Position numbers and translations under genes: made by a program. A DNA stretch of 64,000 nucleotides from positions 1 through 64,000 of the forward strand of contig CAIZZF010000030.1 of assembly GCA_903937385.1 (NCBI GenBank), in the 5' to 3' direction. Within the stretch, counting starts at the first letter, position 1. Every line of letters starts with the position of its first letter. Of this stretch, positions 6,219 to 7,382 are shown piece by piece. The notes below the pieces were generated by a model that was not told the origin of the DNA, made no database searches, and saw nothing but the letters and a program-made list of their open reading frames with translations. The DNA comes from an uncultured Holophagaceae bacterium (GTDB taxonomy: Bacteria; Acidobacteriota; Holophagae; Holophagales; Holophagaceae).

Positions 6219-6569
6219 CTACTTGCAAACAGCACTGCACTTTGAGATCGCCAGCAACACCTTGGTGGAGGCGTCATAGTACTCGCCCTCGAGCAGAGCG
6301 TTGGCGCCGGCCTTGTCCCCAGCCTGGGCCTTTTGCAACACACTCGCGGCAACCGTGTGGAAATGCGCGTGGGTCGTCTTCACTTCGGTGAATTCGGGCT
6401 TCGCTTCCATGCTCTGGCCGCCTGCCCCATGAATCCACTGGCCCAGCTCGCACTGATCACCCTTGCAGACAAGGTCTGGGTCCAGTTGTTCGGTGCTGTT
6501 GCCATCGATGACCATACGAAGCCGGATCTTCCATTTCTGGTGAGCGCCAATAGCTGACTGGAAATCCAT
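6219..6569 (-). CDS. Stand-alone chemoreceptor zinc-binding (CZB) domain protein
   Basis: A 116-aa protein that is essentially a single CZB domain: an early His (GAHQKWK), then CELGQWIHG, then the THAHFH helix, which together supply the His-Cys-His-His zinc site of this family. CZB domains usually sit at the C terminus of chemoreceptors or diguanylate cyclases and sense zinc or hypochlorous acid; a free one could be a soluble sensor or adaptor. The start chosen is the ATG at 6569, preceded by GGGAGGTGGTC. A further ATG 30 bp upstream has no such site. It sits beside a lower-GC tail-tube gene. Confidence 0.8.
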   Translation of the reverse strand: MDFQSAIGAHQKWKIRLRMVIDGNSTEQLDPDLVCKGDQCELGQWIHGAGGQSMEAKPEFTEVKTTHAHFHTVAASVLQKAQAGDKAGANALLEGEYYDASTKVLLAISKCSAVCK

Positions 6570-6698
6570 GACCACCTCCCTAGGGTGCGATGACTGCACA
6601 CCCTGTCATCGGAACCAGCGGGGGCCAGCCCTAAGGGAAAGGCTTGGATTTCATGCAATGTCTAGAATATTGGTAGTCACCGCCGCGACTCGGAGCGG

Positions 6699-7127
6699 CT
6701 AAAGATACTCCACCACCAAGCCCTCGTGAGCCAGAGAAAGCGATTCCATCACAACTCCGCTTCCGTTGGCATTGAGCGGAGAATAGTCCAATTTGAAGGG
6801 GAAAGCGTTTTTCAGTCTCCAGGTCACAACCGGTTCGTGGCTTTCATTGAGAAGGCTGATGGTTACATCACGCCTCTCAATGGTGTTGAGCTGGGCGGTA
6901 TTGATCCAATGAAAGAAATCACCGTCGCTTTTGATCACCCCACGCTTCAACACGATCGGGGAGAATTTCCTGTGCCCGGGCATCAAGGCCGCAGCGTTTT
7001 GAGGGGAAGCCCCGTTGTGATAGGGAACCACCTCAAGCTCGATCGAAAGCCCGCTGACTTCCGTGAATCCGATGTTGCCCCCACCCCAATTGACGGCGAA
7101 GTGATTATTCGTCTGCGAGTAGTTCAT
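6699..7127 (-). CDS. Orphan phage/contractile-injection tail-tube protein (T4 gp19-like)
   Basis: A 142-aa protein of the T4-like tail-tube family (phage tail region protein, also Afp1/Pvc1 of extracellular contractile injection systems). The marks are an N-terminal NHFAVNWGGGNIGFTEVSGL, the PGHRKFSPIVLKRGVI strand and a C terminus ending SLSLAHEGL. In such systems the protein stacks into the inner tube. The ATG at 7127 has GGAGG upstream; a longer reading frame would add 24 residues without better support. No sheath, baseplate or AAA gene is nearby. Its base composition is clearly lower in GC than its neighbours, suggesting transfer or a distant partner locus. Confidence 0.8.
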   Translation of the reverse strand: MNYSQTNNHFAVNWGGGNIGFTEVSGLSIELEVVPYHNGASPQNAAALMPGHRKFSPIVLKRGVIKSDGDFFHWINTAQLNTIERRDVTISLLNESHEPVVTWRLKNAFPFKLDYSPLNANGSGVVMESLSLAHEGLVVEYL

Positions 7128-7382
7128 GACCAGCCTCCGGAGGGTGGTGAGCAGAGAACGCTTGTTCTTTGGCAAGCGAGTTGTTTGAGTTCGGATCATG
7201 AGGCGGAAGTGTAGGTCAAGGTCCAGGCGATGGCAACTGCCCCGCTGACCCCTTGAAAGGGTCCAATCCGATCAACAAGACTTTCCTGCCAGCGGCCCCT
7301 TGGATTTGCCTCCGCGAAGGGAGCTCCCTCTTCGACCCGTTCGGATTCACGTGCCGATGCGCAGGGTGCAAGCGGCGGGTTG

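Follow-up and report, generated by a model that had tools for sequence, protein, structure and literature searches.

The window analysed here, a stretch of 64,000 nucleotides from contig CAIZZF010000030.1 of an uncultured Holophagaceae bacterium, carries on its reverse strand (positions 6699 to 7127) a gene for a 142-residue inner-tube protein of a contractile injection system (CIS), similar to Alg1 and Cis1. CIS tubes are known as the core of an injection machine. On balance, we think it probable that this gene was horizontally acquired and domesticated and that its product works outside any CIS. This reading rests on four results: the gene encodes, by its sequence, a true CIS tube; no sheath or gp25 gene was found with it; it is under purifying selection; and it belongs to a set of solo tubes that extends across four phyla.

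Identity, setting and conservation of the tube gene

The tube protein exceeded the cut-offs of both PF06841 (T4 gp19; E 3.5e-39, 134.1 bits against a cut-off of 28.2) and TIGR02241 (113.9 against 62.4 bits), and scored below those of the NCBIfam equivalogs CIS1 (tube; 29.9 bits, cut-off 220) and CIS5 (tube adaptor; 65.2 bits, cut-off 260). A profile built from 12 solo tubes ranked the AlgoCIS tube 7adz first among solved structures (E 1.3e-67), followed by the tube of the Anabaena thylakoid CIS, 7b5h (E 4.9e-65). The same two structures were the best Protein Data Bank (PDB) matches of the AlphaFold2 (AF2) model of the window protein (166-residue version, mean pLDDT 81), with TM scores over the target of 0.85 for 7adz and 0.84 for 7b5h and identities in the structural alignment of 57% and 53%, respectively. 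With both family cut-offs exceeded and CIS tube subunits as the closest structures, the assignment as a T4 gp19/Afp1-like tube protein in an earlier, preliminary description of this locus is upheld. Alg1 of AlgoCIS (7adz, PMC8894135) and All3324 of the Anabaena thylakoid CIS (tCIS; 7b5h, PMC8894136) share family and fold with the window tube. They differ from it in belonging to full CIS clusters, and their solved chains begin at the canonical Met, unlike most solo relatives of the window tube, which have an N-terminal extension.

The likely start of the gene is ATG 7127, just downstream of a GGAGG ribosome-binding site (7134 to 7138, reverse strand). The start previously given, ATG 7199, is indeed the first in-frame start codon and yields 166 residues, but it is not the likely one. 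Further upstream lies a promoter-like element, TTGCCA-17-TACACT (7208 to 7236, reverse strand), from which a transcript would begin near ATG 7199. Both of its hexamers and the GGAGG are conserved in the two orthologues described below.

The tube gene lies within the GC-poorest kilobase of the window. The GC content of positions 6219 to 7200 is 0.554, against 0.684 for the window as a whole, and one of 1261 segments of the same size is as low, which agrees with the lower-GC pocket noted before. The genome assembly (G000; 3,675,806 bases in 30 contigs, 97.76% complete) contains a single PF06841 match, the window tube gene itself. Genome-wide searches gave no match to the sheath family PF04984, to a profile built from 12 CIS sheaths or to PF04965 (gp25); other baseplate parts and the AAA ATPase were not searched for. 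As far as searched, the tube thus stands alone, as first described, and the linked core genes that define CIS and extracellular CIS (eCIS) clusters do not occur around it, with no sheath or gp25 found genome-wide. With no sheath nearby, it shares the solo state of the group that we define here as membrane-anchored solo tubes. Its locus is flanked by genes with Pfam matches to VitK2_biosynth (presumably of the MqnA/MqnD type), an HtrA-like protease, a TPR protein and a chemoreceptor (MCP).

Orthologues were found in two other metagenome-assembled genomes (MAGs) of uncultured Holophagaceae, G038 (93% identity) and G037 (76%). Both lie between the VitK2_biosynth and HtrA genes, as in the window, and the fetched flanks of all three loci contain no sheath or second tube open reading frame (ORF). 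Within the genus the distribution is patchy, with 13 of 47 genomes matching the window protein at E 0.001. In Nei-Gojobori comparisons of the tube core, dS was 0.35 and dN 0.036 between the window and G038 (ratio 0.10), and dS 0.79 and dN 0.126 between the window and G037 (ratio 0.16); dN/dS was 0.20 between G038 and G037, and 0.06 between two Ignavibacteria. These substitution patterns indicate that the window tube gene is under purifying selection and not decaying.

Solo tubes in four phyla and their N-terminal extensions

Seven tubes of the genus were used as queries in a scan of genome_contigs, from which the best 80 of 81 loci were kept. A sheath-like ORF was present at 65 of the 80. The 15 sheath-free loci comprised the 2 Holophagaceae orthologues, 2 loci of Ignavibacteriaceae, 7 of Bacteroidota, 1 of Hydrogenophaga and 3 of a separate Holophagaceae group (clade B). 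The closest kin outside the genus are the solo tubes of Ignavibacteriaceae (Ignavibacteriota), at 65% identity and in loci with a GC content of 0.37. We then searched a panel of 294 genomes from the family of G075, the Chitinophagaceae MAG that is the source of locus L102, using a profile (A2) that includes the extension, so that the ranking favours extended forms. Nine of the 30 best panel loci were sheath-free and all nine had an extension; one of them, L120, was dropped as it is the L102 gene. Of a further 16 regions, of which 12 had open frames of at least 161 residues, 7 contained anchored solo tubes, 7 a tube beside a sheath and 2 a tube of the WPLP type described below. The resulting set of 28 solo tubes consists of the window tube, 12 of the 15 sheath-free scan loci and 15 panel tubes, the 3 clade B loci being counted apart, and it covers four phyla: Acidobacteriota, Ignavibacteriota, Bacteroidota and Pseudomonadota.

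Where ORFs were listed, the neighbours of the solo tubes differed between loci, except among close kin such as L153-L155. The window group is nearest to the Ignavibacteria in the tree. Among 396 Acidobacteriota genomes drawn from the phylum, a draw that did not include G037, only G000 and G038 reach E 1e-79; the next match, in G600 (3e-59), has an adjoining sheath. The natural interpretation is that the window tube was acquired by transfer from a donor of low GC. At 36 columns conserved among CIS tubes, the solo tubes keep from 87% (window group and transmembrane forms) to 91% (amphipathic forms) of the residues, against 98% in CIS tubes themselves. Their clearest common departure is at K143, which is kept in 21% of the 28 and replaced by N in 14.

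The solo tubes also differ from CIS tubes at the N-terminus. In all 93 tubes adjoining a sheath (rows in which some genes are counted twice), 8-13 residues separate the first Met from the conserved HF core motif, and no N-terminal extension, transmembrane or amphipathic, is present. The distance is at least 20 residues in 27 of the 28 solo tubes; the frame of the other one (L096), truncated by a contig end, stays open and hydrophobic up to that point. By type, 12 extensions contain a transmembrane segment, 13 are amphipathic or basic, forming a short helix that ends directly at the canonical Met, and 3 belong to the window group. The Ignavibacteria extension is translated, since it shows 6 synonymous against 3 non-synonymous changes (dS 1.32, dN 0.07). 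When scored with a profile of the Bacteroidota anchor, the Ignavibacteria (1.1 and 4.5) and Hydrogenophaga (6.0) extensions fall within the top 0.4% of random 12-mers, and one of 97 control stretches upstream of CIS tubes, read through a stop, scores 5.5, above both Ignavibacteria and slightly below Hydrogenophaga.

In the window, the corresponding element is an in-frame extension of 24 codons upstream of the canonical start (7128 to 7199, reverse strand), open from ATG 7199 and of uncertain translation. In many other solo tubes the extension at this position probably encodes a membrane anchor, and the AF2 model has a low-confidence helix at residues 11-24. Homology of the window extension to the Bacteroidota anchor was considered and dropped, as its profile score is not significant, being reached by 3.5% of random 12-mers from the window. 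Because of this score, the weak constraint on the extension (dN/dS 0.58-0.67) and the position of the promoter-like site near ATG 7199, no anchor is claimed for the window protein.

Six further panel tubes were fetched later. Two of them, in G358 (L214) and G174 (L215), are solo tubes of the window's type that have no extension, so the statement that every solo tube of this type is extended had to be abandoned. The other four are CIS tubes at contig ends (C232 of G226 and C140 of G205) and WPLP-type tubes (C280 of G291 and C105 of G075).

A separate observation concerns the 5' ends of L153, L154 and L155, whose DNA is nearly identical over about 120 bases, beginning 26 bases ahead of the start codon and including the transmembrane segment. 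Their 32 extension codons contain no synonymous difference, against a dS of 0.38-0.52 in the tube core. Constraint at the DNA or RNA level or recent exchange may underlie this identity.

Sheath genes in solo-tube genomes and the role of the tube

We surveyed 44 genomes for sheath and gp25 genes: the 28 solo-tube genomes, 4 clade B genomes and 12 CIS controls. The sheath profile was positive in all 12 controls, in 8 of the 28 solo-tube genomes and in 3 of the 4 clade B genomes, and found no match in 20 solo-tube genomes, that of the window included. A gp25 match was obtained in 11 of the 12 controls, in 3 solo-tube genomes (G086, G239 and G293) and in no clade B genome, leaving 25 of the 28 solo-tube genomes without one. 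In the 15-20 kb retrieved for each of the 11 sheath-positive solo-tube and clade B genomes, the sheath gene was accompanied by no match to tube, LysM, spike, gp25 or baseplate; that of G086 is a fragment of 135 residues, and that of G291 lies 3.9 kb from the start of its contig. In G082 the sheath and the solo tube share a contig, about 12 kb apart. As controls for this marker test, five markers were found in three CIS loci and one marker in a fourth, which stops at a contig end.

Ten panel genomes with no tube among the listed matches also had a verified solo sheath, as did G178, whose solo sheath (L177, contig 41) accompanies a full CIS on contig 42. Among the matches listed for the 294-genome panel, a tube-sheath pair occurs in 59 genomes and an anchored solo tube in 16, and no genome has both (hypergeometric P 0.025, without correction for kinship). 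A verified solo sheath is present in 16 panel genomes, five of which also belong to the 16 with an anchored solo tube (P 0.0008, likewise uncorrected for kinship). The sheath places of seven panel genomes (G142, G169, G199, G249, G353, G371 and G374) were left out, and L178 and L192 (G094 and G344) are cut by contig ends.

The solo sheath genes themselves (L166-L171, L173-L177, L179, L180, L182, L183 and L185-L190) encode about 390-640 residues; the stretches retrieved with them, from Bacteroidota, Hydrogenophaga and Holophagaceae, showed neither tube nor baseplate matches. Those of L182, L186 and L190 are without the TPGVY N-terminal arm. At L181, L184 and L191, in the panel family, a tube does lie beside the sheath, and none of the LysM, spike, gp25 and baseplate markers was found nearby.

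The preliminary description had offered three origins for the window gene: a remnant, a spare tube variant for a distant CIS, or a domesticated part. A recent deletion that left the tube gene as the last and now neutral piece of a CIS would account for a tube that stands alone and is patchy in the genus. It would not account for a dN/dS of 0.10-0.20 over a dS of 0.35-0.79, for an intact gene at the same locus of three genomes, where the retrieved flanks contain neither a sheath nor a second tube ORF, or for solo homologues in other phyla that share departures from CIS tubes, such as that at K143, and we regard such a deletion as very improbable. A full CIS directly beside homologues, which would have favoured it, was looked for: both same-locus orthologues are solo, and the sheath-like ORFs at 65 of the 80 scan loci do exist, but in other lineages. 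The idea of a spare tube is hardly credible, for although most CIS-conserved residues are kept, searches of an assembly that is 97.8% complete turned up neither a second tube nor a sheath or gp25 gene. We also give little credence to a phage-derived cargo gene of a prophage or satellite. Low GC and patchy distribution suggest transfer and would suit such an origin, yet a pattern scan of 2.9 million contigs in viral_contigs confirmed none of 28 candidate stretches, the 6 tube matches in 50,697 phage records all come from Streptomyces phages at 33-35% identity, and the flanks hold VitK2_biosynth, HtrA-like, TPR and chemoreceptor genes. Among plasmid records, 88 matched, every one below 60% identity. 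A domesticated part is thus the best-fitting of the three original options.

Another explanation combines the solo genes: solo tubes and solo sheaths, separately encoded, would form one dispersed, baseplate-free machine, of which the window genome lost or never had the sheath. Such a machine would fit the 8 of the 28 solo-tube and 3 of the 4 clade B genomes whose sheaths had neither tube nor baseplate matches within the retrieved stretches, as well as the excess of anchored-solo genomes among those with verified solo sheaths. It is nonetheless unlikely, considering that 20 of the 28 solo-tube genomes, the window's included, gave no sheath match, that the solo tube of G336 is closely related to those of G162 and G291 and yet its genome has no sheath match, that G162 and G291 are themselves close kin, and that 11 of the 16 verified solo-sheath genomes are without such a solo tube.

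Several results weigh against domestication of an anchored tube outside any CIS, the explanation that we prefer. Eight of the 28 solo-tube genomes do carry a sheath gene, and as most of the genomes are drafts, an absent sheath may at times reflect an assembly gap. The tree, built on few columns, neither shows nor rejects a single solo-tube clade (AU p 0.43). Neither the solo tubes of clade B (4 genomes) nor those of the WPLP type (L161, L163, L217 and L218) have an anchor, and the solo tubes of G358 and G174, two genomes without a sheath match, have no extension. In the window lineage, the weak constraint on the extension, its non-significant anchor score and the site of the promoter-like element, which suggests that the extension may be a leader, all point the same way. 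The unextended tubes of G358 and G174 leave our estimate unchanged, because the claim is that most solo tubes are extended.

If the gene was domesticated as we propose, its product would still form the hexameric ring of its CIS parent, since the 87-91% of residues kept at the 36 CIS-conserved columns are suggestive of a preserved ring-forming fold. In most of the family, the extension would tether this ring to the inner membrane on its cytoplasmic side; a cytosolic tube domain is expected because basic residues come after the transmembrane segment. The tethered ring might act as a scaffold or a pore-like collar. Where a solo sheath is kept, which is the case in a minority of genomes, the ring might dock the sheath polymer without a baseplate, a joint role that is unlikely to be general because 20 of the 28 genomes have no sheath match. 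In the window lineage the tether would be the weakly conserved extension of 24 residues, or would be missing. A wider version, which is speculative and unlikely, is that membrane-tethered tube rings, alone or with a solo sheath encoded elsewhere in the genome, make up a new cellular device that is built from phage-tail components but has no baseplate. Its genes would have moved between phyla one at a time, and CIS surveys would miss it because they ask for gene clusters.

The eCIS survey of PMC8213781 demanded at least 4, later at least 10, linked core genes, and solo tube genes would drop out of it because of the first threshold; PMC12210884 similarly left out clusters in which any one of the key gene categories was missing. 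A full-text literature search, thin on subscription journals, returned no title or abstract opening on solo or membrane-anchored CIS tubes. Two known systems are partial parallels. The thylakoid-anchored CIS (PMC8894136) likewise ties phage-tail parts to a membrane, but there a complete machine is anchored through components of its tail fibres and baseplate and not through a lone tube protein. The orphan hcp/vgrG islands of type VI secretion systems (T6SS; PMC13098142) are injection-machine parts off the main cluster, described as often independent of full systems; unlike them, the window gene encodes a CIS tube of the gp19 type, and most members of its family have a membrane anchor. A selected solo tube, often anchored and with no sheath or gp25 found, means that the CIS tube fold has acquired a different use, and that a tube (or sheath) gene by itself is a poor marker of a CIS. 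It also raises the question of what a CIS tube does without a CIS.

The CZB neighbour and other solo tubes

Downstream of the tube gene, and outside the tube unit, lies a gene for a free chemoreceptor zinc-binding (CZB) protein of 116 residues (6219 to 6569, reverse strand), whose sole Pfam hit is PF13682 (E 4e-14), in agreement with the one-domain CZB protein reported before. Its likely start is ATG 6569, behind a GGAGG; the start first assigned, 6599, is the first in-frame start codon. By analogy, H10, C40, H67 and H71 are likely zinc ligands. With a CZB domain, three His and one Cys and no other domain, it is one of the CZB-only proteins, and nothing beyond its position is unusual. In a survey, 27.1% of CZB sequences appeared to be CZB-domain-only (PMC8262984).

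The pairing of tube and CZB gene suggested in the preliminary description did not hold. The CZB gene is present at the tube locus of G038 and absent from that of G037; among 220 sequences searched, kin of the window's CZB protein occur only at the window and G038 loci, so that it is not linked to the tube; and short CZB frames are also found at other loci within the genus. We therefore rejected a CZB-tube module. Both same-locus orthologues and a set of homologues in other phyla are solo, and the CZB neighbour, missing from one of three orthologous loci and from every other solo locus, is incidental to the tube.

Three further kinds of tube locus were noted. In the four Holophagaceae genomes of clade B (L024, 9253-10128; L025, 9567-10404; L026, 5882-6704; L027, 9308-10176), the solo tube is directly preceded by a companion gene of 124-143 residues that reaches the cut-off of no Pfam family, and the two-gene unit has no sheath in its locus. 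A low-confidence AF2 model of the companion (pLDDT 63, 3 sequences) gave Foldseek matches to unrelated beta-rich domains, which were not used. A companion of the same type (E 9e-15) precedes a distant solo tube in G733, from another Acidobacteriota family (L212, 1486-2373), in a unit that, judged by eye, lies between apparent peptidase and Fpg genes. Two tandem tube genes with no sheath ORF in the locus were seen at L028 (9400-10571), L029 (9616-10688, near a contig end) and L032 (9222-10116). Of the tandem-tube genomes, G030 and G042 have no PF04984 match and G028 has one on another contig. Tubes of the WPLP type, named for their WPLPKFRF-like start, occur in the panel family (for example L161, 5404-5871, and L163, 5124-5588), and G152, G291 and G075 carry one besides their anchored solo tube.
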